NCBI RefSeq assembly: GCF_001592965.1
Contig: NZ_LRPC01000002.1
Location: 1 to 43,812, forward strand
Length of the DNA: 43,812 nucleotides
Direction of reading: 5' to 3'
DNA from: Roseivirga spongicola
Lineage (GTDB): Bacteria; Bacteroidota; Bacteroidia; Cytophagales; Cyclobacteriaceae
The notes below the pieces were generated by a model that was not told the origin of the DNA, did no database searches, and was given only the letters and a program-made list of their open reading frames with translations. Made by a program: the position numbers and the translations under genes. Positions 1,648 to 27,512 of the stretch are shown piece after piece (position 1 is the stretch's first letter; each line of letters begins with the position of its first letter).

Positions 1648-2258
1648 TTATCCAAGACATAGTAAAAGCAGTCAATAAGCTTTCGAACAGAAGGCAATCT
1701 AGGTACTTCAGTGTAGATGAAATAACGGAGGCCATTAATGATGCCGTGTTAGACATGTTTAATGAAGGCCGTTCGGAGTTCGAGAAAACACAAGTAGTCA
1801 ACGACTTGCTCAGAGTTTTCAAAGCCAAATCCACAATAGCGCTTACTGAAGGAGAAGGCGACTTACCTGCCGACTATGCCTCATTAACAGGGTTTGAAGA
1901 TAATATTGATGTGGTGACTGACGAACGTTGGGGGGAAGTAAAGAACGATGTTATTTGTCCTGCTGATTCAGACTACCCTGTATTGAATATCTATGGCGCA
2001 AAAGTCAGGGTACTCCCAAATACAATTACTGAAGTAGACATTAACTATCTAAAGAAGCCTACGAAGGCAGTGTACGGAAAAACATTATCTGAGAATGGCA
2101 GAGACTACATCTTTAGCGAAGCAGGTAGTACAGACGTAGAAATTCCTGCCCATAGAGCGCCAGAACTACTTGCTAAGACTCTGAAATACCTCGGTGTTAG
2201 CCTTAAGCAAACGGACTTAACCCAATTTGAACTACTTAAAAACCAGACCGACAAATGA
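1644..2258 (+). CDS. putative phage connector/ring protein 1 (204 aa)
   Basis: It overlaps the genes on both sides by ATGA. The N-terminal part is helical (roughly residues 1-60: IIQDIVKAVNKLSNRRQSRYFS...) and is followed by a beta-rich part including LPADYASLTGF and a second strand region ending VDINYLKKPT. The helix-then-beta order, LPADY-type turn and size resemble head-tail adaptor and tail-ring proteins of podoviruses (T7 gp11-like, crAss-like ring proteins). The downstream 220- and 245-aa proteins share features, including a similar LPTDY motif in the latter. The function is inferred from this layout, not from a recognised domain. Confidence 0.6.
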   Translation: MIIQDIVKAVNKLSNRRQSRYFSVDEITEAINDAVLDMFNEGRSEFEKTQVVNDLLRVFKAKSTIALTEGEGDLPADYASLTGFEDNIDVVTDERWGEVKNDVICPADSDYPVLNIYGAKVRVLPNTITEVDINYLKKPTKAVYGKTLSENGRDYIFSEAGSTDVEIPAHRAPELLAKTLKYLGVSLKQTDLTQFELLKNQTDK

Positions 2259-2917
2259 CAGATAGAGTTACCTTAAAGTATTTGGCTCAACAGGTCATTC
2301 GGATGCTATCAAAAGGCACTCCAAGCAAAGACTCTAGGCTAGACGAAAGAGAGATAGCAGAGTCTTTGAGGCAAGAACTGGCCTCTTCTGTTTACGACAA
2401 ATGGTATGAGGCCAAAAAGAACAAATGGGAAACAATAAACCCAAGGCTATTAAGCACCTTCACTCTTCCAGTAAGTATTGATACTTCTGAGAAAGCCAAC
2501 TATGTATCGGTTGGAGTTCCTTACATACACTTGCCAGACGGCACAGGAATTTGGAGTGTTAGACCAGTAACTACCAAGTCGGCTATTAATAAAGCGATGA
2601 TACCCACCCGTCCGCAAGAGATGGACGTGTATCACGGAACTATCACAAAAGCTTTGGAAGGGCAGTTCTCATGGTTTGCTTTAGACGATAGAATATACTT
2701 CACCAAAAGATGGGGTAAGACCTTGTTAGATGAAGGGGTAAAGAATGTGCTAGTAACCCTAGTTACGGTGGCAAACGAGAATATCGGCATTACCGATGTA
2801 TTGCCGATTAGCCCAGAGCAGAGAAAAACAATTGTAGATGCTACTCTTCAAAAGTACGCATCATTAATGGGTATAATGCCCGATGAAGTAAACGATAACT
2901 CAAGCGTTCCGAGATGA
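2255..2917 (+). CDS. putative phage connector/ring protein 2 (220 aa)
   Basis: Second of three consecutive, translationally coupled mid-size proteins (ATGA overlaps at both ends). It has an N-terminal helical part (TLKYLAQQVIRMLSKG), a central beta-rich section (FTLPVSIDTSEKANYVSV, YIHLPDGTGIWSVRPV) and a C-terminal helix (EQRKTIVDATLQKYASLMG). The pattern resembles connector or tail-ring subunits that form hexameric or dodecameric rings below the portal. No catalytic motif, signal peptide or membrane span is visible. Family-level recognition is weak. Confidence 0.55.
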   Translation: MTDRVTLKYLAQQVIRMLSKGTPSKDSRLDEREIAESLRQELASSVYDKWYEAKKNKWETINPRLLSTFTLPVSIDTSEKANYVSVGVPYIHLPDGTGIWSVRPVTTKSAINKAMIPTRPQEMDVYHGTITKALEGQFSWFALDDRIYFTKRWGKTLLDEGVKNVLVTLVTVANENIGITDVLPISPEQRKTIVDATLQKYASLMGIMPDEVNDNSSVPR

Positions 2918-3651
2918 TAACTATTGATTCTGTTGTAAGGTCGAACATGGGCGACACCCAAAACCCAACACTACATGGGTATGTTTCCCGATTGCATTAT
3001 GCATTAAGGGGGTTTCAGGAATTGTCTTTCGATGTAATCGCTGAGGTTAAAACTACTGAGCTGACCCTGAATGAGATATACGTTGCAAAACTACCTACTG
3101 ACTATGTTAAGCTAGTCAGGGTGTTTGCAAAGGTGGGAGATCGAATTTCAGAAATGTCGGAAGACGGATCTATTACTTTTCACCATGAGGGAACTAAAAC
3201 CCCTAATGAGGCTTTCTACCAAAGAAGGAGTTTGTTCACCCTTGGCAATAGTACGACCACTAGAAACCCATTGAATGGACTAGAAATCTCTAGCAAAGGA
3301 AAAGGGCACAATAACAAGGGCTATTTCAGAGAGAATAAAGGAACGTTCCCAAGAGAATTACAATTCGATAGTGGAGTAACTAGCCGAAAGATATTTGTAG
3401 AGTACTTAGCCACCCCAGAAACACCTGGAAGCGAAACGGCCTTAACCCCATTAGCGGCTAATTGTCTCAATGAATACATCCACTACCGAGATTCTAGACA
3501 CAAGAACGGAGAATCTTCTTACGAGACACAATCTTTAAAGCAAAGCTTTGAAAGAGAGAGAAGTAAGTTGTTCGCAAGAGAATCAAACTTAACTCTCACG
3601 GGAATTATTGACGCATACAAACAAGCCTACGGAGAAAACCAACTTAGATGA
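2914..3651 (+). CDS. putative phage connector/ring protein 3 (245 aa)
   Basis: It starts inside the preceding stop codon region and overlaps the 1,044-aa gene. The architecture matches the two previous proteins: an N-terminal helix (LHGYVSRLHYALRGFQELSFDV), a beta section with AKLPTDYVKLVRVFAKVG, and a C-terminal helical region (CLNEYIHYRDSRHKNGESS, SFERERSKLFARESN). The LPTDY turn parallels LPADY in the first protein of the set, which suggests related folds. A tail-ring or stabilisation role is inferred from its position just before the large nozzle-like protein. Confidence 0.55.
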   Translation: MITIDSVVRSNMGDTQNPTLHGYVSRLHYALRGFQELSFDVIAEVKTTELTLNEIYVAKLPTDYVKLVRVFAKVGDRISEMSEDGSITFHHEGTKTPNEAFYQRRSLFTLGNSTTTRNPLNGLEISSKGKGHNNKGYFRENKGTFPRELQFDSGVTSRKIFVEYLATPETPGSETALTPLAANCLNEYIHYRDSRHKNGESSYETQSLKQSFERERSKLFARESNLTLTGIIDAYKQAYGENQLR

Positions 3652-6600
3652 TTTCTCAACACCAATTCATAGCAATAGACAAAGACACTAGCGCCAGAGC
3701 CTTAGAGAATGGAATGGTCAGGGATATGCTTAACCTTATCCCTGTATCTAACGGGGCTAGTAACTCAGGTGAAAGACAGAACTTGAAAGGGAATACAGCC
3801 GCTACTCAAACAGGAATGACGGGTACAAACTACTCTTGCAAAGGGGTGGTGGTAGACGAAGAAAATTCTTTAGCTTACCTGTTTTGTACGTGTGCTTTTG
3901 AAGGGGTAAATAGTTCGGCATTGCTAGAATATGACTTCTCCGCAAACAGCCTCACCGAAATACTTATCCTAGACGAAGGGATATTCCTAAGCGACTCAGT
4001 TGATTTCGTAAAGGGATTCATTGAGTCTGGGTGGATATATTATAATGACGGAGACGAATTAAAACAGCTAAATATTGCCCAAGCTAAGGCGGGTGATTAT
4101 GATTCTTTGTCTGGAGATTTTTTAGGAGTAAGCTTCTCCTTAGACCCTTTTAGTCTCTACATACTCGCGCCAAGACTTGTAGCTTCATTCAGCAAGTCTT
4201 ATGACTCAACTATACTCAACAATACAGTAGGCAAAGATAGCTGGCAATTTAGGTTCAGGTATAGGTTTAAGAATGGAGCAAAGTCACCATTAACGAAATA
4301 CCAAGGGCTGACACTGGCAAATAAGAATCCTTACGACAATTCCGCTAAAAACAAGATTGCAATATCTTTTACAGCAATAGAGGGAGACATTCTAGCTAAG
4401 TTTGTTGACAAAATAGAAGTATACGGAATCAAGAACAACGAAGGAGTACACAAGTTTTTGGGAGAAGTAGACTATGGGACAGATGGAAGCGGTACATTCA
4501 ACTTTACTAATGCCAACAACAGTAAGACCTTATCGGAATCGGAGGCGTTGAAGCCGTATGAAAACATTTCTAGACAACCAGTTTCTATTGCCTACCCAGA
4601 AAATAGAATGGTTGCGGTTAAGGGCTTAGATGAATATGATCTTAGTGGCAACTATGACTTTTCTCTTTCTGTGGACTATTACTCAGGAAGTTCTAGCGGT
4701 TTGTACGCAAAAGAAGGAGGCACATACGAAATAGGATTGGTTTTTTTAGACGCGAAAGGCCGAAGGACTTCAGTACTGAAAAAGAAGCAAATCACCGTTC
4801 CTTACAAAGATCCAGATGGAACCTATGCAGGCTTCGGGAAAGTACATTCTACTAGACCAAGAATTAGCGTGGAGTTTTCAGGAACAGCGCCCTCATGGGT
4901 TGACAGTGTTGTTGTAGTATCAACTAAGGAGCAGAACTATGAAGAGTACATACAAGTGCCCGTCAATGTACTGTTTTACTCTGCGCCAGAAGCGGCTGCG
5001 GTCAACTTCGGAGAGGGGGATCCTAATTTCGCCTTTTTAGACGGCAACCTATATGTGAACGAACAATCTGAGGCAGATGTAAGACTTTCAGCAGGTGACG
5101 GTACATACAACAGTGGGCAAGATGAATTTCAGGGCTACACAGCGATAGACTTTCAGTTGCCAGTCAACATCCCTGTTAAGCCAGAAATAGGATGGAGAGT
5201 TCGCGTAATAGAGTCTGGAGACAATAACGCTTCTGACATATCTGGAGGTGACTTATATGTTAGCGATGTATTCACCAATGTGGTTCGTGTAGAAGGATTT
5301 GACTTTGAAGACTGGTCTAGCAAGAGTCCGTATTTTTTTGTTGAGTTTTACAAGCCAAACACAGTTGAATACAATCAGTTTTACGATGTAGGAGGAAGTA
5401 CATTTACAGACGGAGGTGGTATAACTATTGATGGAGACACCGCTTATGTAGACTTGACAGACCCAGAGTTTAGATTCGTCTACAAGGAAGTAACAAACAA
5501 GCCAAGCTCCACTCTGTTCGATTCATACCTAACAGAACAAGGCTGTATATTAGAGTCGCCAACACCATGTGTAAGCGAGAATGACTTGGTAGATATAAGA
5601 AATCCTGAGCTAACTAATTCAGGAGGATTCAACGTGTCAGAAGGAAAGAGAACGCTTACCTTAGATTACTCTAAAAAAGTAGCCGATATTGGTGTTGCAA
5701 ACATAGAAAACACTGAGTATAGTGAAAAAAACCTATACAACACACTTATAGCTTCTAACAGCTATGTAGAAAACACTAAGATAAACGGCCTTAACAGATT
5801 TGATTTCGAGGACGAGTTTAACTTGCCAAATGAGAGAACCCCAATTACTCACTTAGAAGTGGTCAATGATGTACTGCTTGCTCTACACGAAAGAAATGCA
5901 ACCTCAGTGTACATTGGCTCTAAGTTCTTAAAGCAAGCTTCAGGACAAGACACTGTAACTACAACCGATTCATTCTTTGGAGATGAAAGGCTACTAAAAG
6001 GCGGCTATGGAACCATTAACCCTGAGTCGGTAAAGAAGTATTTAGGGCAATGTTTTTGGTGGGATGCCAACAATGGGTGTGTTGTTAGATATTCTGCAAA
6101 TGGCCTTGATTCAATTAGCGATCAAGGGTTGAAAGATTATTTCAGAACCAAAGCAGAAACTTACAGTTCAGGCTACAAAGTGTTTGGGGCAATAGACGTT
6201 TACCTTGGACTCTATCTCGTTACTTTTCCAGACCAAGACGGTCTTTCGCCAGAAACTTGGGCGTGGGATATTAAAAAAGGCTACTGGATAGGCCGATTTA
6301 GCTTTTGTTTTGAGCAGTCAATAAGCTTAGGCAATAATTTTGCAACATTCAAATCTCAGAACATCTGGAAGCATCATAGCAATAGTGTTTACAACAACTT
6401 CTACAACACTCAGTATGACTCTCGAATTACGTTCGTAAGCAACCCTGATGTGGCCTTAGACAAGTCGTTCGATAACCTTTCATTAGACGCAGACGAGGCT
6501 TGGGATGTATTAAGCATTACCAACCCTCAAGGCCAAGACACCGACTTATTGGAAGCTGAGTTCGATTTGGTAGACAACCAATATTACGCGTACTTGAAGC

Positions 6601-6782
6601 GAGACAAAAACACAGCCTCGGACTTACTAGGAGGGCAGCCAGCAATTTTGGCAGGAGACCCAATTCAGTCTAAATATGTTGAAATTACATTAAGGAAAAC
6701 GGCCTCAGACCTGCAAAAGATAAACGCTATCTATGTAGGATATTCTCCATTGACAGGACATTTATTGGCGGCCAGAGAGTAG
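3648..6782 (+). CDS. large tail nozzle/muzzle-like protein (1,044 aa)
   Basis: Long, beta-rich protein without signal peptide or membrane segments. The N-terminus (FIAIDKDTSARALENGMVRDMLNLIP, then SNSGERQNLKGNTAATQ) is of the type seen at the start of nozzle/muzzle (stabilisation) proteins of Bacteroidota podoviruses and crAss-like phages, where a similar 'do/make this nodal RDMLNL...LKGN' pattern precedes a T7 gp12-like propeller. Late segments (HLEVVNDVLLALHERNATSVYIG, CFWWDANNGCVVRYSANGLDSISDQG) look like repeated beta-propeller blades. It follows three ring-like proteins and precedes an internal virion protein, as expected for the tail nozzle. The assignment is based on N-terminal resemblance, size and gene order. 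Confidence 0.65.
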   Translation: MISQHQFIAIDKDTSARALENGMVRDMLNLIPVSNGASNSGERQNLKGNTAATQTGMTGTNYSCKGVVVDEENSLAYLFCTCAFEGVNSSALLEYDFSANSLTEILILDEGIFLSDSVDFVKGFIESGWIYYNDGDELKQLNIAQAKAGDYDSLSGDFLGVSFSLDPFSLYILAPRLVASFSKSYDSTILNNTVGKDSWQFRFRYRFKNGAKSPLTKYQGLTLANKNPYDNSAKNKIAISFTAIEGDILAKFVDKIEVYGIKNNEGVHKFLGEVDYGTDGSGTFNFTNANNSKTLSESEALKPYENISRQPVSIAYPENRMVAVKGLDEYDLSGNYDFSLSVDYYSGSSSGLYAKEGGTYEIGLVFLDAKGRRTSVLKKKQITVPYKDPDGTYAGFGKVHSTRPRISVEFSGTAPSWVDSVVVVSTKEQNYEEYIQVPVNVLFYSAPEAAAVNFGEGDPNFAFLDGNLYVNEQSEADVRLSAGDGTYNSGQDEFQGYTAIDFQLPVNIPVKPEIGWRVRVIESGDNNASDISGGDLYVSDVFTNVVRVEGFDFEDWSSKSPYFFVEFYKPNTVEYNQFYDVGGSTFTDGGGITIDGDTAYVDLTDPEFRFVYKEVTNKPSSTLFDSYLTEQGCILESPTPCVSENDLVDIRNPELTNSGGFNVSEGKRTLTLDYSKKVADIGVANIENTEYSEKNLYNTLIASNSYVENTKINGLNRFDFEDEFNLPNERTPITHLEVVNDVLLALHERNATSVYIGSKFLKQASGQDTVTTTDSFFGDERLLKGGYGTINPESVKKYLGQCFWWDANNGCVVRYSANGLDSISDQGLKDYFRTKAETYSSGYKVFGAIDVYLGLYLVTFPDQDGLSPETWAWDIKKGYWIGRFSFCFEQSISLGNNFATFKSQNIWKHHSNSVYNNFYNTQYDSRITFVSNPDVALDKSFDNLSLDADEAWDVLSITNPQGQDTDLLEAEFDLVDNQYYAYLKRDKNTASDLLGGQPAILAGDPIQSKYVEITLRKTASDLQKINAIYVGYSPLTGHLLAARE

Positions 6783-6824
6783 AGCAAGCCCTATTTTCTA
6801 CCCCGACCAAGCTACCTTTGGGAT

Positions 6825-7373
6825 ATGGCAGCACCAGCATTAGCAATGATTCCTTCTCTAGCTAAAACAGGCTTAGGGATAATTCAAACAGGGGCAGGGT
6901 TGTTTACCAGGAAACCCAAACGCCCCACATATTCAATACCAACCGCAGTAACACAAGCCACAGATGCTACAAGGCAGCAGGCTAATTTAACCCAGAGACC
7001 AGGGGCTAGTGCTGCCGAATCTGTTATCCAAACCAATGCAGCTAATACTGTAGACACCATTCAAAACGTTGGAGGCTCAGCATCAAACGTTATGCAAGGG
7101 CTTATGAATGCACAGTCTCAGCAAAACAGGGCAATGCTAGGCGAACAGGCTAAAAACGAAGCCTTCAGATACCAAAGCTTTCAAGACAACATAAGATCCT
7201 TACAAACATTAGGTAGATACCAAGACAAAGCATGGGACTGGAACCAAGGCCAGAAGTACATCGAGAAAAGAGATAGAAGAGATGCATTGATTAATGCAGG
7301 GTTAAACAATATGATAGGCGGTGCAGAAGATGCGACTTCTATTGACTTGCTAGGCCAAATGAACCCCAATTAA
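6825..7373 (+). CDS. internal virion (ejection) protein, small (182 aa)
   Basis: The N-terminus is hydrophobic and glycine-rich (about residues 1-26: PALAMIPSLAKTGLGIIQTG, then AGLFTR) and is followed by a long Ala/Gln-rich helical part (QATDATRQQANLTQ, NAQSQQNRAMLGEQAKNEAF). Small proteins of this type with an amphipathic or membrane-active N-terminus follow the nozzle gene in T7-like phages (gp14) and crAss-like phages (cargo proteins) and are ejected into the cell. It is separated from the nozzle gene by 42 nt. The larger partners expected beside it (T7 gp15/gp16-like) are instead on the other strand at 11456-20832. Confidence 0.6.
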   Translation: MAAPALAMIPSLAKTGLGIIQTGAGLFTRKPKRPTYSIPTAVTQATDATRQQANLTQRPGASAAESVIQTNAANTVDTIQNVGGSASNVMQGLMNAQSQQNRAMLGEQAKNEAFRYQSFQDNIRSLQTLGRYQDKAWDWNQGQKYIEKRDRRDALINAGLNNMIGGAEDATSIDLLGQMNPN

Positions 7374-7419
7374 CACTATATTGTAGTAACATAAAACAAC
7401 CATTTTAAAACAAATCATT

Positions 7420-7593
7420 ATGAAAAAGACTATTTTGAACGTAGCCCTAATCGCAATTGTATCATTTTTTGGTGTTTTGGCCTGCACTGACAGCGAAGAC
7501 GTTGTTCCACAAGAGGTTGAGCTAAATGGAGACTATGATGGAAACCTGCCTGACCCAGGAGACACAGGGGTTATAATTGGCGGGAATGGCTGA
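7420..7593 (+). CDS. 57-aa lipoprotein
   Basis: Short ORF starting MKKTILNVALIAIVSFFGVLAC. It has a Lys-rich n-region, a hydrophobic core and a VLAC lipobox with Cys22, so it should be processed by signal peptidase II. The mature part is 36 residues, acidic and Gly/Pro-containing (DLP-type DGNLPDPGDTG). It is the last gene before a strong terminator, 46 nt after the internal virion protein. Candidate roles are outer-membrane spanin (Rz1-like), superinfection exclusion or another lysogenic-conversion lipoprotein; none is proven. Confidence 0.65.
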   Translation: MKKTILNVALIAIVSFFGVLACTDSEDVVPQEVELNGDYDGNLPDPGDTGVIIGGNG

Positions 7594-7620
7594 GTCGACA
7601 ATTAATTTACTCAAAAAAAC

Positions 7621-7661
7621 AAAAAAGAGCGTATGGTTGTTTGACTGTACGCTTTTTTTTG
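7621..7661. terminator. bidirectional rho-independent terminator
   Basis: Stem AGCGTA (7628-7633) pairs with TACGCT (7648-7653). A run of A precedes it (7621-7626) and a run of T follows (7653-7660), so it can work in both directions. It closes the virion operon after the lipoprotein gene and separates it from the TPR gene. Confidence 0.85.
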
Positions 7662-7710
7662 TTTACTTGAAATCGGTTCCTCAGCCTATAGCCAAAATAT
7701 TATTAAATCA

Positions 7711-8985
7711 ATGGACACTATGAAAAAATGGTTATTTATTGCGGTTGCTATTCTGATTTCAGCAAACCTACAGTCTCAAACAGATGAAGAAAAGTTTAAT
7801 TGGGGTAGGGATAACTTCAGGAGTCAAGAAGACTCTGTTATTTCTTTATTTCAAGAGGCTAAAAAACAAGCAGACACTTATTGGTACGCTAAGTATGACG
7901 CATTCTTAGCCATGATTGAATCTAGGAAGGGGCATAGTAATTCTGCACACACGCGATACACTCAGTCTTTAGAACTGCTAAAGTCAATTGAGTCCGATGA
8001 TATTTCCCTTATCTATCAAATCACCAGAAACCTAGCCGCAATAAGCTATAACATTGGTAATTACGAGAGCGCAGCCAAGGCTTATTCAGATGGGCTTTCC
8101 ATAGATTCATTGAGGGACAAGAGCGGATATACTAGCAAGCAGAAAGAGCTAGATTTGATTCAACAAGACTTAACAAGATTTTATATTGCTGTCTCTAAGT
8201 CACAGAGTAGAAGCATGTATGAGGAAGGAAATCTTGAATTAGCCGCTCTTTATAAAAAAGGGGCTATTCATGAAAAGGTGTTCCCAAGGGTAGCTAGTGA
8301 AATCGGCCTTAATAACTATTCAATTGGAGAAAATGAAAAGGCGCTTTCTTATTTTCATGAAGCGGTTATTGCCGATAAATGGGGGGTGCTAGAGGGAAGC
8401 GGACATCACAATATTGCCAAGACGTTCGCAGCAATAGGAGACACGGAAAAGGCGCAGCGATACTTCGAAATGGCTAAACCTAAGATGAAGTCCACTTACG
8501 GCAAATTCCACGTACTTATGGATCAAGGCAAGATGTGGCTAGACCAAGGAAAAGAAGATAAGTCATTGGGGTATTTGTTAGAGGCTGTCGAGAATCATTG
8601 GAAGTTTGAAGACAATGCAAAATACCTACTAGTGTATGACTACATATCAACCGCTTACTCAAGAATTGGAGAAGACAACAAAGCCAGTGCTTATAAAAGT
8701 GAGTTCTGGAACCTAACAGCAGAGCACCAAGAAAACGTGGACAGGATTAGAAAGGTTGAATCGGTAAGAGCTGCGGAGTTTCAGGCTGAGAGCATTAGAC
8801 TTATGGCATTGCAATCTGTTCGGTACAAGAAGCTCCTTATAGAAAGAATGGTTATTGGAGGGCTATTGTTAATCTCCCTGGTATTGATAAGCGTATTGAT
8901 TAGGAAGATGGTGAACCGAAAGGAGAGGTCTAAACAAATTGTGGAAACGGCCTTAAGTAAGATAAAAGAGATAGACGGTTGGTAG
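7711..8985 (+). CDS. exported TPR protein with C-terminal membrane segment (424 aa)
   Basis: ATG at 7711, with a second in-frame ATG at 7720 (MKKWLFIAVAILISANLQSQ) giving a cleaner signal peptide. The body consists of helical TPR-type repeats, for example the segments around IGNYESAAKAYSDGLSID, IGENEKALSYFHEAVI, IGDTEKAQRYFEMAKP and QGKEDKSLGYLLEAV. A transmembrane helix (MVIGGLLLISLVLISVLI, about residues 385-402) is followed by only about 20 charged cytoplasmic residues. The layout is that of Bacteroidota TPR-containing sensor kinases or LuxR-type regulators, but without any output domain. It sits alone between the terminator at 7621 and the convergent repressor gene, a typical place for a cargo (moron) gene. 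A role in envelope interaction or exclusion is possible. Confidence 0.7.
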   Translation: MDTMKKWLFIAVAILISANLQSQTDEEKFNWGRDNFRSQEDSVISLFQEAKKQADTYWYAKYDAFLAMIESRKGHSNSAHTRYTQSLELLKSIESDDISLIYQITRNLAAISYNIGNYESAAKAYSDGLSIDSLRDKSGYTSKQKELDLIQQDLTRFYIAVSKSQSRSMYEEGNLELAALYKKGAIHEKVFPRVASEIGLNNYSIGENEKALSYFHEAVIADKWGVLEGSGHHNIAKTFAAIGDTEKAQRYFEMAKPKMKSTYGKFHVLMDQGKMWLDQGKEDKSLGYLLEAVENHWKFEDNAKYLLVYDYISTAYSRIGEDNKASAYKSEFWNLTAEHQENVDRIRKVESVRAAEFQAESIRLMALQSVRYKKLLIERMVIGGLLLISLVLISVLIRKMVNRKERSKQIVETALSKIKEIDGW

Positions 8986-8999
8986 AATAACTGTCTAGA

Positions 9000-9733: not shown

Positions 9734-9800
9734 TCTGATTGATATGGAAGAGGCTCTCTTAATAATAAAAAGAGGTTGATTTTTGTGTTTTGACTTTTAT

Positions 9801-10816: not shown

Positions 10817-10822
10817 CAACAG

Positions 10823-11401: not shown

Positions 11402-11455
11402 GTTTATATTTTTTGGCAAGGTACAAATTTAACTAATCACAAGAAAGCCTGTCTC

Positions 11456-20832: not shown

Positions 20833-20851
20833 TAATGCTCGATTTATAAAA

Positions 20852-20885
20852 CAAAAATAGCCCTAATGGGGGTGAAAATAGGGCT
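20852..20885 (-). terminator. leftward terminator before the ejection genes; U-tract overlaps a -7-like element
   Basis: On the - strand AGCCCTA (20885-20879) pairs with TAGGGCT (20865-20859) and is followed by ATTTTTGTTTTAT. This would end the early transcript. The same bases read TATTTTTG (20859-20852), a full match to TAnnTTTG, and the ATG of the 548-aa gene follows 19 bases later, a spacing similar to that of the early promoter at 28260-28290. No TTG is present at -33, so any promoter here would need an activator. Confidence 0.65.
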
Positions 20886-20939
20886 TGGAGGACTTGTTCG
20901 AGAACAGTACCGTTTTTTGGTGCTTTGCGGTAAGTTTTA

Positions 20940-21140
20940 CTAAGGACAATCAGGGTATTTACAGTTGTTGTTCGCAGTACAGCTTTCTCCTATCTTTCTG
21001 ATGTACTTACATTGGTGTTTTCCTTCTAGAAAATCTATGTACTCTTCAAGTGCGTCTATATAGTTGTCGGCACTCCCATAGTCTATGATTCTTTGCTTAC
21101 CTCGATACTCAAAGAAGTCTTTTTCGTTAGGTCGTTTCAT
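20940..21140 (-). CDS. small Cys-containing phage protein (66 aa)
   Basis: ATGA overlap with the preceding 78-aa gene; last gene of the early operon before the terminator at 20852. The N-terminal two thirds are acidic and aromatic, with two DY/FL motifs (NYIDALEEYIDFLEG). The C-terminal 25 residues hold four Cys (QCKY, SCTAN, NCKYPDCP) that could bind one metal ion. I do not recognise the family. Confidence 0.6.
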   Translation of the reverse strand: MKRPNEKDFFEYRGKQRIIDYGSADNYIDALEEYIDFLEGKHQCKYIRKIGESCTANNNCKYPDCP

Positions 21141-21373
21141 TCTCTAAAATTGTCTTTTGTGATTAGTACTTTTCTGTTTTTCTTGATTGTCACCTCTTTG
21201 TTGAAAAGTTTAGAAGGGTATTCGACCCATAATTCATTGGCCACGGCCTTACAATAAGCCACCATATCATCTGCTTCTACCTTATGACCTACAAACACTG
21301 TATGTCTTTCCTCTATCTTCCCTGATTTGTTCCATAGCCATAAGCTTATTACATAGTCGTCTTGTTTTTTCAA
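21137..21373 (-). CDS. small phage protein, unknown (78 aa)
   Basis: The likely start is TTG at 21373, which overlaps the TGA of the primase-helicase gene (TTGA), and the end overlaps the 66-aa gene by ATGA. There is no earlier or nearby in-frame ATG. The sequence (YVISLWLWNKSGKIEERHTVFVGHKVEADDMVAYCKAV) looks like a small alpha/beta protein. No family is recognised; its position suggests an accessory replication function. Confidence 0.55.
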   Translation of the reverse strand: MKKQDDYVISLWLWNKSGKIEERHTVFVGHKVEADDMVAYCKAVANELWVEYPSKLFNKEVTIKKNRKVLITKDNFRE

Positions 21374-23247
21374 AAGAGAGGTTCTTCGTTGTCGGTTTTC
21401 CAGTCTGACTCTTTAATTGCAGGCTCGTCAAAAGCGCTTGATTGGCTCTTGAAGATGTCGTTTCGGGAGTAGGATTGTTCGGGGCTTATCCTTTCTATTG
21501 CGCCTAAACTTCTACCTGCTAGAGGGCAAAATTTATCCGACTCTTGATGGTATCTCATTGTTTTATAGTCGTACTCTAACGGAACCACAATACCTCTTTT
21601 CCCGACTAGCTTTGGCTTTTTAATCTTTGCTGTAGTAAACTCCACCAATGGGTTTCGATAATCTGTTGCCACAAATGGGCGCTGAATAAGTATCATATTA
21701 TCCACTTTATCCATAAAGTCACTGGCTCCCTTTACTTTGTAAGCGTCTGGGGCTTTATAGTTTCCAGACCCATCTTTCTCTGGCTTAAGCTGGTGGGCTA
21801 CTAGATTGTAAGAGACATCTTGTTCATTGCAAAACCGCTTCATGTCAGACAGCATACTGGTTATGTATTGGTCTCTGTTTTCGTTGCCTTTCTGCCTGTT
21901 TGCAAGCCAATTGAACGGATCTACTATAACCCCATCTATGCCATGCCTTCTCACTAATGCTTTGAACTTAGCGTGAATGTGCTCTATGGTGAAGTCTTTA
22001 TCTGGGTAAACAACGAAAAAATGGTTCTCTAGAAAGTCTAAAGCTTCCTTCAATTCGTTTTCTGTAATGCAATTTGGCAGAGAATTGTCTGTTGGCTTCC
22101 CTACGTACATCTGAACAAAATCATCGAAATACTCTTCAACTGGGAAGTTTTCAGGAGATAGTACAGCAAATTTCCATCCGTCATGAACGGCCTTTAATAG
22201 AGCGAGTTGATTTAAGATGAGAGACTTGCCCTCGTTTGCGTATCCCGACCATAGATTGAGTTCCTTTTTCCTCCATGTCCAAGCTTGGTCGATGTCTGTG
22301 AAGTATGTGGTAGACCCTTTTACTCGCCCTTCTTTCAGCTGTCTAACTAGTTCATCTTTGGCGTCTTTGGCTGTGTATACCTCAGCTATTCGAACAAACT
22401 TGGCGTTCTCTTTGAGTTCTATAAGCTTTTCTTTGCCTTCCCATTTGAGCACCTCATTAGCATCTTTGTATTCGCCAAAGTCAACGGTCTTACACTTCTC
22501 TTCTCCAAATCTTCTGACAAGCTCTTGCTCTAACCTCTTACCGTTGGGGTCGTTGTCTACTGCTATGTAAATTATTTCGGCCTTCTCAAATAGGTCATAG
22601 CAGTTGTCTATACAGGCTATCTTATTAGAAGCATCTTTGTCTTGAACGTTTGGCGCTCCTTGGTTTACGCTTGTATGGAAAGGAAAGCCCGCTACCTCAA
22701 AGCTGAGGCCATCTTCAACGCCTTCAGTAATGATTATCTCCTTATTGCCTTCGGTTACATTCTGCCAGCATCTGTCGTAGTTGAAGACAATAGGCATGGC
22801 TCCAGGTGCTTGTCTGAAGTCTTTTGAGTCGATCTTACGTTTTTGGTAGTTGGTAAGTACCCCGTCTTTGTGATAGGGGTAAACAAGCCACCCGTTCTCT
22901 TCTGCTATCTTGTTTGCGTTAACAACCTCTTGGGTAATTTTTCTCCCTGTGAAGTAGTCTAAGCCCTTCTGAGATAGCTTGGTGATGTTAGGCCGTTTGG
23001 GTAGCTCATACTGCTTGCGCTCGGTGTAGGAGGTAGAAAGCTTAGTGTCGCCAACTTTGCCTTTAAAGTCTGGACAATGCTGACAATTGTATAGCTTTTC
23101 GTCAATAGATACGCTTAGGCATTTCTCCTTCCAGTTCTTTCTTCCACAAACATCTTTAGCTCTAGGGCACATGATTTTGTGCTGCCCAGAGTTGATATTG
23201 GCAGGAATATCTATGCCAACGGCCTTAAACTCGTCTATTACTGACAT
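21370..23247 (-). CDS. bifunctional DNA primase-helicase, T7 gp4-like (625 aa)
   Basis: The N-terminus has a Cys-rich zinc-binding region (Cys27, 34, 43, 55, 58). A TOPRIM domain follows, with the Glu motif IITEGVEDGLSF (Glu175) and the DxD motif IAVDNDPNGKRL (Asp231/Asp233). The C-terminal RecA-like DnaB/gp4 helicase domain has Walker A SGYANEGKSL (335-343), a Walker B-like DGVIVDPFNWL and a later YNLVAHQLKPE motif. It should unwind DNA 5' to 3' and prime lagging-strand synthesis at the phage fork. No phage DNA polymerase is seen in the window, so host polymerase may be used. It has a 16-nt gap to the upstream DUF2493 gene and is part of the early leftward operon. Confidence 0.9.
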   Translation of the reverse strand: MSVIDEFKAVGIDIPANINSGQHKIMCPRAKDVCGRKNWKEKCLSVSIDEKLYNCQHCPDFKGKVGDTKLSTSYTERKQYELPKRPNITKLSQKGLDYFTGRKITQEVVNANKIAEENGWLVYPYHKDGVLTNYQKRKIDSKDFRQAPGAMPIVFNYDRCWQNVTEGNKEIIITEGVEDGLSFEVAGFPFHTSVNQGAPNVQDKDASNKIACIDNCYDLFEKAEIIYIAVDNDPNGKRLEQELVRRFGEEKCKTVDFGEYKDANEVLKWEGKEKLIELKENAKFVRIAEVYTAKDAKDELVRQLKEGRVKGSTTYFTDIDQAWTWRKKELNLWSGYANEGKSLILNQLALLKAVHDGWKFAVLSPENFPVEEYFDDFVQMYVGKPTDNSLPNCITENELKEALDFLENHFFVVYPDKDFTIEHIHAKFKALVRRHGIDGVIVDPFNWLANRQKGNENRDQYITSMLSDMKRFCNEQDVSYNLVAHQLKPEKDGSGNYKAPDAYKVKGASDFMDKVDNMILIQRPFVATDYRNPLVEFTTAKIKKPKLVGKRGIVVPLEYDYKTMRYHQESDKFCPLAGRSLGAIERISPEQSYSRNDIFKSQSSAFDEPAIKESDWKTDNEEPLF

Positions 23248-23263
23248 TAATTTGTTTTGTTTG

Positions 23264-23617
23264 CTAGTAGTGCTTTACCCGAATTTGAAGTGCCGACTTT
23301 TTGGCTAGGTCTATCATGTGTTTTGTGCCTTTGCTTTTTCCGTCCCAGAAGGCTATGAGTGCATCTGCATAAAGCGCCATCTCTCGGTTTCTTTTGTAGC
23401 CAGCGCTTTTGCCGTACCTATTCCAATCGGCAGGGAATTGAGTAAGCTTAAGTCCGTTTTCTTTCGCATATCTCTCTCCAAGTTTATCAGCTCCATTAGC
23501 GGTTCCGCTAACTACTTCGATGTCTTTCTTGTGTTGGAGTGCGGCTTTACAAACGGCCTTAAGCATCTCGTAATCATTGAAGGTTCTTCCTCCTGCTATA
23601 ATTACTTTGAAGGTCAT
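23264..23617 (-). CDS. DUF2493/SLOG-family protein (117 aa)
   Basis: Typical Rossmann-like SLOG/DUF2493 (YspA-like) protein. It contains VIIAGGRTFNDYEML (glycine-rich nucleotide loop, residues 5-19), VSGTANGADKLGERYAKENG (residues 35-54), FPADWNRYGKSAGYKRNREMA and ALIAFWDGKSKGTKHMIDLA. SLOG proteins bind nucleotides or nucleotide derivatives, and phage members are common in early operons; the exact substrate is not known. It overlaps the 67-aa gene by ATGA and precedes the primase-helicase. Confidence 0.85.
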   Translation of the reverse strand: MTFKVIIAGGRTFNDYEMLKAVCKAALQHKKDIEVVSGTANGADKLGERYAKENGLKLTQFPADWNRYGKSAGYKRNREMALYADALIAFWDGKSKGTKHMIDLAKKSALQIRVKHY

Positions 23618-23817
23618 TGCGCTAGTTCATCTACATCTATCTTGTACTGGTCAAGCAGTTCGTGTATTTTCTTCCAGGACTTTTTATAGTCGTAGTCAGT
23701 GTGCTTGAAGTCCCTCCATCCGTTGTGTACCAGATCCCACAGCATAAAAGCCATGTCGTTTGCTTTGGCTAGTCGCTTGGCCTCTTTTTCGTCTTCGGTT
23801 TCAAAGGTTACTTTCAC
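23614..23817 (-). CDS. small phage protein, unknown (67 aa)
   Basis: GTG start at 23817, four bases before the stop of the 200-aa gene; the end overlaps the DUF2493 gene by ATGA. Tryptophan- and tyrosine-rich helical peptide (LWDLVHNGWRDFKHTDYDYKKSWKKIHELLDQYKI). Similar short proteins in phage replication operons are usually uncharacterised. Overlaps on both sides support that it is translated. Confidence 0.6.
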   Translation of the reverse strand: MKVTFETEDEKEAKRLAKANDMAFMLWDLVHNGWRDFKHTDYDYKKSWKKIHELLDQYKIDVDELAQ

Positions 23818-24416
23818 TTCTTACTCCATTCGTTTTTTCTTCGCATCCATGCTCCGAACCTCCCTTTGGTATTCCAGGGCTTGAATTGCTTGAGTTCACA
23901 TTTCATTAGATGTCCATTATCAGCCACAGTAGACCAGTGTTTAAAGAACAAATTAGCATCTTCGGCAGTAGGGACCCATTCTCGTTTGCCTTGGGCTTTT
24001 TCTTCTTCGTACTCCTTCATGACCCCGATTATCTTCTTTCTGAAGGCTTCTTTCCGTTTCTCTAGGTCTTGGTCGGACAGTATGTATCGGCCAGAGGCTA
24101 GTTGTTCTTTCCACCACTGAGGACAAACGGTATTGAGTTCTTTCAAGGCTGTTTTGCTAAGGCTCACGTTTTTTCGGTGTTGGTTATACTCCATAAAAAA
24201 GGGCAGGAGCAGGTGGCTTCCGAAGTCTAGGATTATTTCTTCTCCTAGCTGCTCCTGTAATCCCTTTAGTTGTTTAGGGTTGATTCCAGTCTTCACTGGG
24301 TATTCTTCGTGTTCCTTAGTCCATAAACCAACCTTGCTGCAATGCTCCATTAGGTAATGGATAAACAGCTTCATTTCTACCGAAGCGTTAATGAATTTAG
24401 GGTTGGTGTATAGCAT
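23814..24416 (-). CDS. putative replication-accessory protein (200 aa)
   Basis: The N-terminal part looks like a small winged-helix-type domain (FINASVEMKLFIHYLMEHCSKVGLWTKEHEEYPVKTGINPKQLKGLQEQLG). A charged helix follows (KRKEAFRKKIIGVMKEYEEEKAQ), then a C-terminal Trp-rich region (FFKHWSTVADNGHLMKCELKQFKPWNTKGRFGAWMRRKNEW). The last segment resembles DnaD- or replisome organiser-type C-termini that end in 'F..WLRRN'-like helices. It lies in the replication operon two genes upstream of the primase-helicase. Helicase loader or initiator function is an inference. Confidence 0.55.
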   Translation of the reverse strand: MLYTNPKFINASVEMKLFIHYLMEHCSKVGLWTKEHEEYPVKTGINPKQLKGLQEQLGEEIILDFGSHLLLPFFMEYNQHRKNVSLSKTALKELNTVCPQWWKEQLASGRYILSDQDLEKRKEAFRKKIIGVMKEYEEEKAQGKREWVPTAEDANLFFKHWSTVADNGHLMKCELKQFKPWNTKGRFGAWMRRKNEWSKK

Positions 24417-24419
24417 GGG

Positions 24420-24842
24420 TTATTCTAGTTCGGGCGTTTCGTTAAACCCCTCCAAATCGACAGAAAAACCTTCTATAGAGCCGTTCTCATTAATATCCAT
24501 AATGATATAATCTCCATAGCCGTTTTCATGAGGGCAAAGGAGTGAAGGAACGTAGTTGTTCTTTATTGAGGTCACTACTTTCTCATCTTTATCTAGGAGA
24601 TAGTAGCTTCCATCGTCACAAACTTTATAGTGAACAGAAGCTTTTTTGCCAATTTCCCAGTCCTTAATAATGCCAGTACTGAGATCAATAATGGGGCGCC
24701 ATCTGTCTCCCCTTCGGAGTGGTATTAAAGTCCCATCAACATCTTCAACTCCATTGACAGTAGCATCTTCCCAATACCTAACACCTGCGTCAACAGCAAG
24801 AAAATTAACCTCTTTGTCTTCTATTACTTTTACTTTGTTCAT
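24420..24842 (-). CDS. conserved phage protein, unknown (140 aa)
   Basis: Beta-rich protein containing VDAGVRYWEDATVNGVEDVDG, RRGDRWRPIIDLSTGIIKDWEIG, ASVHYKVCDDGSYYLLDKDEKVV and GYGDYIIMDINENGSIEGF. I recognise this series (YWEDATVNG..D, G..W.PIID...G.I..W, HYKVCDDG.Y.L) from uncharacterised proteins spread over several bacterial phyla, often next to phage genes; no function is known to me. It lies three bases upstream of the 200-aa gene. Confidence 0.7.
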   Translation of the reverse strand: MNKVKVIEDKEVNFLAVDAGVRYWEDATVNGVEDVDGTLIPLRRGDRWRPIIDLSTGIIKDWEIGKKASVHYKVCDDGSYYLLDKDEKVVTSIKNNYVPSLLCPHENGYGDYIIMDINENGSIEGFSVDLEGFNETPELE

Positions 24843-24866
24843 AAATAATTGATTATCAGTTAGTTA

Positions 24867-25232
24867 TCAAAAAGGCAAGTCGTCAGAATCTTCTCCTGTG
24901 CTTACCGGGGCTTTTCTCTCTTCAAAGTTTTGGATGTCTGTGTCTCTTTGAGTGCTCTCGCCTTTGTCGATTTTCCAGGCATTGATGGTGTTGAAGAATC
25001 TGGTTTCTCCATCTTTCTCGTACTTTCTTCCTCTCAGGTTAATTCCGACTGTTACTTCTTGACCTTCCTTTACATCGTCTAGCAGTCCGCACTTGTCTTG
25101 AACAAACTCCATTTTGATGAACTCTGGGTACTGAGGGTTGTCGGCATATTCAAGTACAAACTCTCTCTTCTTGAATGATGATGTTACATTCTGTGTGTCG
25201 TAGATCCTCTCTACTCTTCCTGTTACTTCCAT
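24867..25232 (-). CDS. DUF3127 OB-fold protein, probable ssDNA-binding protein (121 aa)
   Basis: Residues 1-90 follow the Bacteroidota DUF3127 pattern: MEVTGRVERIYDTQNVTSSFKKREFVLE, IKMEFVQDKCGLLDDVKEGQEVTVGINLRGRKYE, FNTINAWKID. An OB-fold is predicted for the family. The C-terminus is a flexible acidic tail ending DSDDLPF, very close to the DDDIPF tip with which bacterial SSB recruits partner proteins. This supports an SSB-like role at the phage fork. It overlaps the upstream 145-aa gene by one base (TAATG). Confidence 0.8.
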   Translation of the reverse strand: MEVTGRVERIYDTQNVTSSFKKREFVLEYADNPQYPEFIKMEFVQDKCGLLDDVKEGQEVTVGINLRGRKYEKDGETRFFNTINAWKIDKGESTQRDTDIQNFEERKAPVSTGEDSDDLPF

Positions 25233-25669
25233 TAATTTTCGGGTTTTATGTTATACTTCTCTATCAATGCTTGAGTTAGTATTCTCACCTCTTTACCGCA
25301 CTTGGTACAGGCTAGAATGGTTTTTTCTCTTCCTTTTGGAGTGAAGACTATTTCGGGCACAAAGTCATGGTCGGTGCATTCTTCTTCTAGCCTGTCTTCC
25401 AACCATCTGATTAGCCTTAGCTGCCTTTCTGCAATAGCCCATATTTCCAATTGTTGCTCGTCTCTATCGTTATTAGGAAAATCGTTCCTTAGATAGTCTA
25501 CAATAGCTGCGCAACGACCAAGGACAGGGTAGAGCTTGGTTAGCATTGACTGAGCCTGTTGCTCGGTTAGCCTTCTTCTTTTTCTGAAGTAAAGCCTGCG
25601 TATTTCAAGCCTATCCTCGTCTATTGTTTCAAGCCTATGGATAAGGTCTATGTATGCCCATATCTTCAT
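25232..25669 (-). CDS. helical protein with C-terminal zinc ribbon (145 aa)
   Basis: The first 95 residues are helical and Arg-rich (RLETIDEDRLEIRRLYFRKRRRLTEQQAQSML). The C-terminus has a CxxH...CxxC pattern (CTDH about residue 98, ACTKCGK about residue 126), as in a zinc ribbon. Nucleic-acid binding is likely, but the target is unknown. It lies directly between the HTH gene and the SSB-like gene, with one-base spacing on one side and a one-base overlap on the other. Confidence 0.6.
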   Translation of the reverse strand: MKIWAYIDLIHRLETIDEDRLEIRRLYFRKRRRLTEQQAQSMLTKLYPVLGRCAAIVDYLRNDFPNNDRDEQQLEIWAIAERQLRLIRWLEDRLEEECTDHDFVPEIVFTPKGREKTILACTKCGKEVRILTQALIEKYNIKPEN

Positions 25670-25924
25670 TTAGTCTCTTGTTTTGAAGTTTTGATTGGCA
25701 AACTCTAGGCACTCGCTCCACTTGTAGCTTATACTCTTGCCAAATTGGTAGTAAGAAATGCTAGGGCTGTATTTCTTTCGGTCGTGATAACTGGCAATGG
25801 TATTGGTGTGTACATTCCACCTTTTAGCCAACTCTTTTCTTGTTATAAATTCGTCTGGATCGAAGTTTGAATGCCCCTCCAAAACGGTCTTAACAATTAG
25901 CCTCACCATCTTCTCGAATTTCAT
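25670..25924 (-). CDS. excisionase/MerR-type HTH protein (84 aa)
   Basis: FITRKELAKRWNVHTNTIASYHDRKKYSPSISYYQFGKSISYKWSECLEF is the excisionase/'HTH_17' winged-helix pattern, with the recognition helix near WNVHTNTIASY. Proteins of this size act either as phage excisionases or as small early regulators. The middle of an early replication-recombination operon fits either. It has one-base spacing to the YqaJ gene. Confidence 0.7.
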   Translation of the reverse strand: MKFEKMVRLIVKTVLEGHSNFDPDEFITRKELAKRWNVHTNTIASYHDRKKYSPSISYYQFGKSISYKWSECLEFANQNFKTRD

Positions 25925-25925
25925 C

Positions 25926-26957
25926 TTAGCTCTTTAGTATTTTAGGTGATACAGTGAATTTTGAATAGTTAGAAACCTTGCCAGCCGCCCCAAAGTCTAT
26001 GCACTTAACTTTATTGTTGCCCATGATTTGGATTAGCCTATTCTTGATTCCGCTTTGCTCTGCGGTAGCTTCTTTTTTGGTTTGGCCGAACTCCAGGTAT
26101 TGTTTAGCTAGACCGAAGGTTTCCATGTCGCCTTCCATTGGTAAATTCTCTGGTAGGTTTCGGTATTTCTCTTTGAGGAATTTCTCGGTAGCCTCTCCAC
26201 TTTCGGCCATTGGCTCGTATTCGGTTATTAGCGCTTCTTTTTCTTCGCCCTGAAGCCCTTTAGCGAGTTCTTTCTTTACGAAGATTACATTGTTCAGGAA
26301 GTCGTCTGCTGCCTGTACAACACTTTGAAAAATAGTGTTAGTGTCTTCTTTATAGAAAGGAATGATTTCTGGGTAGGTAGAGTCTTTCAGCTGAAAAATC
26401 TCACCGTATTGGTGTCCAGAAGTGTGTATCTGAGTAATCAGTTGATAAATGTGGGCAGGAGATACGCCCGACTCCCATTTATCGGTTGCCTGAGAAGAGG
26501 TGTTTTTAACTTCTACGCAGCCTTCGGGAACGGTCTTATACCTTCGGCACATAAAGTCCATGTTTATAGCAAACTGTGGGTACTCAGGGTTGATGTAAGT
26601 GAAGTTTGCAGGTCTGTATGAGCGCAGTTTATTGCCCTTGTTGATATTCTCTTCAAAGACTTCTTGCGACTGGTTTAGCGGATCTATGTAGCGCCACCAT
26701 TCTTTTACACTGATTCTTTCTAACACTTTGCCCTTCCAAGTGAATATGTTGTCGAAGTGAACAGGCGGTGTTTCTCTAATCATCTGGTGAAACAGCTCTA
26801 ACTTGCTTCTGTATTGGTCGAAGCCCATGAGTACGCCAATATCTGAGCCGCCAAGCCTTGCTACTTCAGGATTTCCAAAGCCCTGGAGCTTGTGTCTTAG
26901 CTTGATGAAGTTTTTGTAGTTCTTGTATGGGAACTTTTGGAGTTTTCTTGATAGCAT
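25926..26957 (-). CDS. YqaJ-like viral recombinase exonuclease (343 aa)
   Basis: PD-(D/E)XK nuclease of the YqaJ/lambda exonuclease group. The family signature ARLGGSDIGVLMGFDQYRSKLELF is at residues 33-56, a glutamate lies in WKGKVLERISVKEWW (Glu80), an Asp in FAINMDFMC (Asp134), and EVK is at residues 149-151. This enzyme should resect dsDNA 5' to 3' for single-strand annealing recombination. No RecT, Erf or Sak-type annealing protein is recognisable nearby. The C-terminus (TAEQSGIKNRLIQIMGNN...) is the usual helical extension. It overlaps YopX by one base. Confidence 0.85.
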   Translation of the reverse strand: MLSRKLQKFPYKNYKNFIKLRHKLQGFGNPEVARLGGSDIGVLMGFDQYRSKLELFHQMIRETPPVHFDNIFTWKGKVLERISVKEWWRYIDPLNQSQEVFEENINKGNKLRSYRPANFTYINPEYPQFAINMDFMCRRYKTVPEGCVEVKNTSSQATDKWESGVSPAHIYQLITQIHTSGHQYGEIFQLKDSTYPEIIPFYKEDTNTIFQSVVQAADDFLNNVIFVKKELAKGLQGEEKEALITEYEPMAESGEATEKFLKEKYRNLPENLPMEGDMETFGLAKQYLEFGQTKKEATAEQSGIKNRLIQIMGNNKVKCIDFGAAGKVSNYSKFTVSPKILKS

Positions 26958-27328
26958 TAGGCTGTTTGGTTAAGGAGTTCAGGGTTTTCGTAGATGTTGC
27001 CGATGACTGTTGATTTGTGGTTAAGAACTGATAGGCTAGGCGATACTTCTATTTCTCCATTCCATCCTTTTGCAGTAAAACATCCGCTAGAAAAACATAC
27101 CACATGATAATTATGACCTTTTCGCCATGACGGCCTATGTCTTGTTTCACCTGTATCTAAAATATCGCCCTCATAAATCTCTTGGTCGTTCTTATCTTTC
27201 AAGCCAGTGAATTGCATTATCGGCAGGTCACTATCAAATTGAATTACTTTAAGCTGAACGTCCTTGATTGAAAAAGGACTTGACATGTAATCAACATTGT
27301 CCCATACCCTGAACTTAATCTCTCTCAT
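26957..27328 (-). CDS. YopX-family phage protein (123 aa)
   Basis: Recognisable YopX pattern: MREIKFRVWDNVDYMSSP at the start, then MQFTGLKDKNDQEIYEGDILD in the middle and STVIGNIYENPELL at the end. YopX proteins are common in Gram-positive and Bacteroidota phages; the function is unknown. There is a 184-nt structured gap upstream, between this gene and the HNH-like gene, and a one-base overlap with YqaJ downstream. Confidence 0.9.
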   Translation of the reverse strand: MREIKFRVWDNVDYMSSPFSIKDVQLKVIQFDSDLPIMQFTGLKDKNDQEIYEGDILDTGETRHRPSWRKGHNYHVVCFSSGCFTAKGWNGEIEVSPSLSVLNHKSTVIGNIYENPELLNQTA

Positions 27329-27346
27329 TGTTTTACTTTTTCAGAA

Positions 27347-27472
27347 ACCCCTGCTTATCATTCTCGGCAAAAATTGTTTCCGCTAGAGAACCGAATGCTT
27401 GCAACCCTTTAATTCTCACCTTGAATAAGGCCGTTAGGGAAGGGTCTGCAAGTGAATGGATAAGCAAGGGGT
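27347..27472. ncRNA. structured RNA-like element between the HNH-like and YopX genes
   Basis: P1: ACCCCTGCTTATC (27347-27359) pairs with GATAAGCAAGGGGT (27459-27472), 13 bp with one bulge. P3: CTTGCAACCCTT (27398-27409) pairs with AAGGGTCTGCAAG (27440-27452), 12 bp with one bulged base, and holds an apical CCTT-GAAT-AAGG hairpin. CATTC at 27359-27363 can pair with GAATG at 27393-27397 (making a side hairpin) or with GAATG at 27454-27458 (extending P1), so two states are possible. On the + strand a further AGGGGTAG/CTAGCCCCT hairpin (from about 27467) with a T tract (27509 on) competes for the P1 GGGG. The strand is uncertain; the gene operon would transcribe the - strand. No known RNA family is recognised. 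Confidence 0.5.
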
Positions 27473-27512
27473 AGGTCACACTGTCTATTCTCTAGCCCCT
27501 CGTTTGCGTTTT

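Follow-up and report, generated by a model that had tools for sequence, protein, structure and literature searches.

Short sequence words that recur over a whole genome are known from several systems. Chi sites, for example, are enriched in the chromosome of the host whose nuclease reads them. The stoperators of cluster A mycobacteriophages such as L5 and TipsytheTRex, more than 20 of which can be found across the phage genome, follow the direction of transcription and reside in promoters and short intergenic spaces (PMC9283540), and the cluster O mycobacteriophages (Corndog) harbour 34 copies of a 17-bp palindromic repeat with both arms invariant, about one third of them in genes, for which the function is given as unknown and dimeric binding proteins have been suggested (PMC4351075). 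In bacteria, the DNA uptake sequences of Neisseriaceae and Pasteurellaceae are about 10 bp long, very frequent, and mark the whole chromosome (PMC2346458). The present work concerns a stretch of 43,812 nucleotides from Roseivirga spongicola (contig NZ_LRPC01000002.1, positions 1 to 43,812, in the following the window), which contains the end of a prophage with many copies of the 10-bp word AACGGNCTTA. This word makes up one half of the dyad TAAGNCCGTT-N4-AACGGNCTTA, which is a real, strong, phage-specific iterated element under selection at the DNA level.

The nearest known parallel is the cluster O repeat. Both are short elements dispersed in and between genes and mostly located away from promoters, the inverted-repeat form of fixed spacing appearing in the Roseivirga phage in six pairs, and the cluster O repeat is absent from the host genomes named for it. 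However, the Roseivirga phage has about 90 sites, in which a strong arm is mostly combined with a degenerate one; about 80% of them are genic and they are accompanied by an amino-acid bias, and neither the sequence nor the phage group is related. The word resembles the stoperators in its asymmetry, its dispersal across the genome of a temperate phage, its variable central positions and its bases beyond the core, which in stoperators are needed for binding; in contrast to them it mostly lacks an orientation following transcription and lies mostly outside promoters and short intergenic spaces. Like uptake sequences it is about 10 bp long, frequent, found in genes as well as in inverted intergenic pairs, and preferred in one orientation in reading frames, but it is carried by the phage and not by its host chromosome. 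Chi sites are likewise short, over-represented and somewhat strand-biased, whereas the present word is not enriched in the host chromosome. Dispersed phage repeats as such are already known; what sets this one apart is the density, which is about 130 times higher in the phage than in the host, and the upkeep inside genes at amino-acid expense. A literature search did not find the motif in print.

Abundance of the word in prophage and host

The window is contig C2 of an assembly of 4.478 Mb in 33 contigs (GCF_001592965.1). Its first 28.9 kb or so represent a prophage end coding for a muzzle C-terminal domain, a DNA primase/helicase, a single-strand binding protein and a RecE-like exonuclease. 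Portal and capsid genes are found on contig C7, as is a terminase identified by tblastn comparison to annotated terminases, and C6, C7 and the prophage part of C2 belong to the same phage. From window position 29078 on, the DNA is shared within the genus, with matches in 18 of the 18 other genomes that were searched (in one over 230 bases only), and no match in any of these 18 starts before that position; the phage-chromosome junction lies between 28.8 and 29.1 kb. For pooling, the contigs were taken in the inferred order C6, reverse C7, C2, based on a GroES-like gene upstream of the terminase, as in relatives, and on the listing of a terminase relative (P0003) and a relative of a C6 gene (P0031) with contigs of equal size (8468). 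Gene calls made in this analysis gave 89 phage genes, 74 of which were scanned against Pfam and/or PHROGs.

A preliminary description of the window had reported 16 copies of the word, confined to phage DNA, where fewer than one would be expected by chance. Confinement and the low chance expectation hold, but the count was too low: there are 18 exact copies (14 on the plus and four on the minus strand), all located at 2210-27435 and hence inside the prophage, while the chromosomal part, which begins at about 28.9 kb, lacks the word, as compared to a mean of 0.25 and a maximum of 2 in 100 dinucleotide shuffles. The whole assembly contains 79 exact copies, 18 on C2, 27 on C6 (22.3 kb), seven on C7 (14.7 kb) and 27 on the other contigs. 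Neither the 34 copies on C6 and C7 nor the conserved flanks and the inverted pairs at exactly 14 bp described below had been noticed before. Counted against a third-order Markov expectation, as had been proposed, the phage with 52 copies in 65.9 kb (0.79/kb) exceeds the expected 0.67 by far, and there is no comparable excess in the host, with 27 copies in the remaining 4.41 Mb or so (0.006/kb).

In fact, no gapped word is more enriched in the phage than AACGGNCTTA, with a Poisson log10 p of −72.8, uncorrected for multiple words. The best words of nine related phage sequences, seven or eight of them partial (Panino, phi13:2, elemoF, phi38:1, phi14:2 and four IMG/VR contigs, of which only Panino was compared in full), and of four non-phage samples of the assembly reach −6.0 to −18.5 only, and that of phi38:1 resembles, in our reading, a tRNA sequence. 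In a survey of 390 genomes of the family, the assembly studied here ranks first by count (79) as well as by density (17.6 per Mb), followed by genomes with 71 copies in 9.1 Mb and 41 copies in 3.0 Mb, respectively; this survey consists of counts only, so that a small local cluster in another genome might escape notice. In the 18 congeners the copy number ranges from 12 to 62. Raised counts were seen in four genomes of the family: in G926, G914 and G952, for which all places were listed, the copies are scattered, and for G979 8 of 41 places were among the matches listed.

A profile was trained and iterated on the phage itself, so that its weaker sites can be trusted only collectively. At a threshold of at least 14 bits it detects 88 phage sites (50 exact, 38 variant), and at least 12 bits are reached by 102; a 65.8-kb host sample gave one and four sites, respectively. 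The prophage part and the sites of the window are as follows (positions in the window).

1..28900, no strand: prophage part of C2, the remaining phage being on C7 and C6; muzzle domain PF25729, primase/helicase, single-strand binding protein, RecE-like exonuclease
1764..1773, minus: variant AACGGCCTTC, 16.5 bits
2210..2219, plus: exact AACGGACTTA, 22.4 bits
3435..3444, plus: exact AACGGCCTTA, 23.6 bits
5784..5793, plus: exact AACGGCCTTA, 18.6 bits, within the muzzle-like gene
6698..6707, plus: variant AACGGCCTCA, 15.0 bits
8302..8311, plus: variant ATCGGCCTTA, 17.2 bits
8946..8955, plus: exact AACGGCCTTA, 20.7 bits
11595..11604, minus: exact AACGGGCTTA, 16.6 bits
12146..12155, minus: variant AACAGCCTTA, 15.7 bits
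13058..13067, plus: exact AACGGCCTTA, 22.3 bits
13430..13439, plus: exact AACGGCCTTA, 17.1 bits
13457..13466, minus: variant AGCGGCCTTA, 15.8 bits
13701..13710, plus: variant AACAGCCTTA, 16.1 bits
15867..15890, no strand: dyad at offset 14, AACGGTCTCA on the minus strand (19.0 bits) and AGCGACCTTA on the plus strand (12.4 bits)
16249..16258, plus: variant AACGGACTTC, 18.3 bits
16679..16688, plus: exact AACGGCCTTA, 19.2 bits
17551..17560, minus: variant AACGGCCTTG, 18.9 bits
17837..17846, plus: exact AACGGCCTTA, 16.7 bits
18083..18092, minus: variant AACGGCCTCA, 21.8 bits
18721..18730, plus: variant AACGGGCTTC, 19.4 bits
20524..20533, minus: exact AACGGCCTTA, paired outward with 20617 at an offset of 93
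20617..20626, plus: exact AACGGCCTTA, outward pair with 20524
22483..22492, plus: exact AACGGTCTTA, within the primase/helicase gene
22988..22997, minus: variant AACGGCCTAA, 18.0 bits
23218..23227, plus: exact AACGGCCTTA, by exact match and profile
23449..23458, minus: exact AACGGACTTA, paired outward with 23552 at an offset of 103
23552..23561, plus: exact AACGGCCTTA, top profile score, 25.4 bits
24144..24153, minus: variant AACAGCCTTG, 17.3 bits
25883..25892, plus: exact AACGGTCTTA, by exact match and profile
26529..26538, plus: exact AACGGTCTTA, within the RecE-like exonuclease gene
26957..26966, minus: variant AACAGCCTAA, 14.0 bits
27426..27435, minus: exact AACGGCCTTA, sole intergenic window site at 14 bits or more

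Form of the site and selection on the DNA

Position 6, considered before as the tolerant one, is indeed free but has a preference for C (C 31, T 13, A 6 and G 2 of the 52 exact sites), and A is accepted at position 4 as well (AACAGNCTTA, 13 copies). Other accepted changes are C at position 9 and C or G at position 10. The flanks of the 52 exact sites are conserved, too, with G/C at −8 in 39, T at −6 in 33, G/C at −2 in 38, A at −1 in 31 and A at +10 in 33 of them (each p < 1e-5), and T or A at −6 predominates alike in sense, antisense and intergenic sites.

Six pairs of sites with at least 12 bits lie exactly 14 bp apart, the left one on the minus and the right one on the plus strand, which gives the dyad its form. 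At the exact sites the left arm remains chiefly as two T (66% and 52%) and one C (38%), so that at most sites one arm is strong and the other degenerate. Pairs of sites of at least 12 bits within 150 bp are not remarkable in number (19 as compared to 24.5), but their orientation is: 15 of the 19 are inverted and point outward, as compared to a mean of 4.6 and a maximum of 12 in 5000 strand permutations, three have the opposite, inward orientation, and only one is a same-strand pair, whereas random arrangements average 12.8 and none of 3000 gave so few. Such a pair geometry would fit a site contacted by two protein units. Three outward pairs are found at exactly 103 bp (9833/9936 and 19355/19458 on C6, 23449/23552 in the window); upon inspection by eye no clear helical phasing of pair distances was seen.

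With respect to coding context, 24 of the exact sites lie in sense and 16 in antisense orientation in genes, and 12 are intergenic. The use of three reading frames, as reported previously, is found again over the whole phage, with 15 sites read as Thr-Ala-Leu and seven as Asn-Gly-Leu in sense and 16 in the antisense Lys-x-Val frame, where the residue at the free base N is Ala in ten, Thr in five and Ser in one; in addition, two sites use the third sense frame. The single noncoding copy noted in the window, at 27426, is correct. When all genes were synonymously recoded in 200 runs, a mean of 1.2 and a maximum of 5 genic exact sites resulted in place of the 40 present; therefore selection acts on DNA and not on protein, as had been proposed. 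The word-capable tripeptides Thr-Ala-Leu (18 versus 6.0 expected), Asn-Gly-Leu (13 versus 5.3) and Lys-Ala-Val (18 versus 6.0) are two- to threefold in excess, and the word is kept inside genes at an amino-acid cost. Of the sites with at least 14 bits, 70 of 88 (about 80%) are located within genes, and two junction sites use their own TAA as stop codon. It follows from the coding context that the sites are placed where they fit.

Conservation in sister phages was assessed through proteins only, codability being our own reading of alignment rows, and the outcome is no more than suggestive. For a protein of 2577 amino acids two close sisters could be aligned, in which the sites are largely retained. 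In P0015 (90.5% identical over the alignment) 13 of 13 strong sites are still codable, and only three changes are found at them, KRAY to KRSY, SKAV to SKTV and RKAV to RKSV, all three at the residue whose codon holds the free base N and with new residues obtainable via N; in P0016 11 of 13 are codable. Of two additional sites at 12-13 bits one is altered in both sisters. The picture is mixed in more distant relatives: another protein, which carries four exact sites, was compared with five relatives at 56-66% identity, and TAL and KTV (one-letter code) are each kept in four of five, and the residues at the exact site of the terminase are retained in a relative at 94% and lost in three more distant ones.

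The strand bias, by contrast, is weaker than first described. Instead of a 14:2 split with a p of about 0.004, the window has 14:4 (p = 0.031), and all exact sites pooled in the inferred contig orientations give 36:16 (p = 0.0078); unpaired sites of at least 12 bits are distributed 49:23 (p 0.003). For the exact sites (51 of 52 counted) the ratio of plus to minus is 18:8 in arms with minus-strand genes and 17:8 in arms with plus-strand genes. For unpaired sites of at least 12 bits it is 17:14 and 32:8, respectively (Fisher p 0.06 for gene strand), so part of the bias follows the coding strand. The polarity is modest and too weak for naming a polar machine, and the inversion of close pairs is what would be expected of a protein site with two half-sites; a strongly polar signal is not well supported.

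Putative readers of the dyad and competing explanations

Amongst the explanations offered in the preliminary description, that of a site bound by a phage protein is still to be preferred. With moderate confidence we regard the dyad as a putative dispersed binding site, probably for a phage-encoded protein, which would act on the genome as a whole and not on single promoters. On this assumption, AACGGNCTTA would be the strong half of a recognition element with two half-sites, the left of which is usually degenerate; the reader would be a DNA-binding protein, most likely encoded by the phage itself and contacting the DNA with two units, and selection would maintain about 90 sites, a mean of one per 0.75 kb, wherever the coding sequence permits. 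By binding, the protein might mark or organise the whole phage DNA for replication, partition, compaction, packaging or broad silencing. Strong coupling to promoters is not observed, and an action on the whole genome is preferred because the sites are mostly genic, do not follow transcription in the arms with minus-strand genes, occur in early, replication and structural/late regions, and are kept at an amino-acid cost.

A more specific possibility, which we put forward as tentative, is that of a phage-wide code for self-recognition, by which a phage protein would tell its own from host DNA by the dense dyad tag. If true, this would be a virus-borne counterpart of bacterial uptake sequences that has reshaped the phage proteome through its excess of Thr-Ala-Leu, Asn-Gly-Leu and Lys-Ala-Val. 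In any case, the 24-bp dyad offers a direct handle on the reader protein, and with it on the question of whole-genome tagging, as opposed to that of single promoters, by a temperate phage distantly related to the crAss-like phages.

Several observations weigh against a genome-wide binding site read by a phage protein. Among the 74 scanned genes there is no convincing reader, all regulator-like matches apart from pRha being weak, and two genes with HTH_3-like (helix-turn-helix) matches have no site of at least 7 bits in the gap upstream of their starts. The spacing of all sites is no more even than random (coefficient of variation 0.93 versus 1.02, P 0.18); an apparent evenness after merging close inverted pairs was discarded, since merging itself deletes short gaps. 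Sites of at least 14 bits are absent from 2.9 kb of capsid genes on C7, only three of the seven sites in the Asn-Gly-Leu frame have G/C at −8, and the word-capable tripeptides KTV (7 versus 5.7) and KSV (3 versus 6.6) show no excess. In addition, 15 of 102 sites lie at −50 to 0 just upstream of gene starts, where 6.9 would be expected, and sites per kb are enriched between genes on C6 and C7, though not on C2. As for conservation, P0016 (88.8% identical) loses two of the 13 strong sites, the sisters show no increased identity at the motif residues (93% versus 90% and 88% versus 89%), and in the four-site protein NGL is kept in only one of five relatives at each of two sites.

The main rival is a repressor network, in which a prophage repressor would bind operators and many other sites and block initiation as well as elongation, as stoperators do in cluster A mycobacteriophages. 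This we consider doubtful, although an integrated prophage with HTH-like genes would provide a suitable setting, two dyads lie just upstream of called gene starts (C6 4541-4966 and the terminase), and the unpaired sites in the arms with plus-strand genes prefer the sense strand. Also, the stretches with HTH genes and pRha have no sites of at least 14 bits, which would be expected if these genes had to stay on in a lysogen, but this was noticed only afterwards and the capsid stretch is empty, too. The two stretches are listed here.

9000..11450, no strand: stretch without sites of at least 14 bits (three at 11-12.4 bits), coding for a weak HTH_3 protein, a pRha regulator and a signal-peptide-like protein; 35-41% G + C in 500-base bins
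28419..28805, plus: weak HTH_3/phrog_8 regulator at the prophage edge, upstream without sites of at least 7 bits

Transcription-oriented stoperators in particular are disfavoured: the orientation does not follow transcription in the arms with minus-strand genes, be it for exact or for unpaired sites, no more than the 12 intergenic ones among the exact sites would be in the expected place, and neither of the HTH-like genes has a site in its upstream gap.

Alternatively, the word might be a self-recognition tag of the Chi or uptake type, read by a recombination, replication or packaging enzyme of the phage and built up by selection or biased exchange. The likeness to uptake sequences outlined above (PMC2346458), the way in which the motif bends protein sequences, the RecE-like exonuclease and single-strand binding protein encoded by the phage, and the similar bias of exact sites in arms of either gene direction would all agree with such a tag. 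It nevertheless appears unlikely, as even spacing is not shown, there is no known reader, and a preferred pair offset of 14 bp is not known to be a feature of Chi. The lack of enrichment in the host chromosome speaks against the Chi-like site of the preliminary description, if a host Chi is meant, and equally against a host uptake sequence. Conventional expression elements, i.e., promoters, start-associated elements or terminators, are very improbable despite the excess upstream of gene starts and the one-stranded word found partly at gene starts in phi38:1 and Panino (see below), given that most strong sites lie inside genes and in both orientations, at least two junction sites merely supply a TAA stop codon, and the distance to starts is not fixed.

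Related sequences and other features of the prophage

The terminase is about 21-26% identical to those of Cellulophaga, Flavobacterium and Maribacter phages among the matches listed, which are thus remote relatives. In a viral contig collection, queries with the muzzle protein and the terminase retrieved no relative; terminase alignment gave four loci at 25-26% identity, in 21 kb of each of which the motif is not in excess. Two scans of a genome contig collection likewise found no relative, and terminase searches of sampled genomes yielded remote matches or none beyond the own genome. The dyad pattern matched one contig of the viral collection, with three sites in the 4.4 kb examined if A is accepted at position 4 and the two halves of the dyad are counted separately, and a 17-bp single-site pattern matched at least 120 stretches, with at most three such sites per locus beyond the own phage among the matches listed. 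Allowing up to one mismatch, the dyad occurs in 395 genomes of the class four times in the own genome and once in one other, while a reversed control matched six genomes.

Another iterated word, CACTATCA, was found in Maribacter phage Panino and Cellulophaga phage phi38:1. It is strongly one-stranded (24 plus to 2 minus in Panino, 1 plus to 15 minus in phi38:1), follows in both the strand of the replication genes and in part immediately precedes start codons; a phage-like density was not seen in any of 149 genomes of the class.

Within the prophage itself, an integrase was not recognised among the 74 of 89 genes scanned despite the junction at 28.8-29.1 kb, and an excisionase-like protein is encoded at 25670-25924 of the window. 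The stretch at 9000-11450 is comparatively A + T-rich within the late region and perhaps a later insertion. A virion RNA polymerase was considered for the protein of 2577 amino acids, and a pattern of the catalytic type was searched for and found to be absent. The same 21 bases are present in inverted orientation at both ends of C6, with no further copy in the searched assembly; C6 may thus have inverted repeats on either side or represent an invertible segment. Finally, at 10815-12400 of C6, in the gap between divergent arms, ARAGORN predicts tRNA genes for Asp, Gln and Trp, of which Rfam at gathering score recovered that for Gln only, and two dyads are located nearby.

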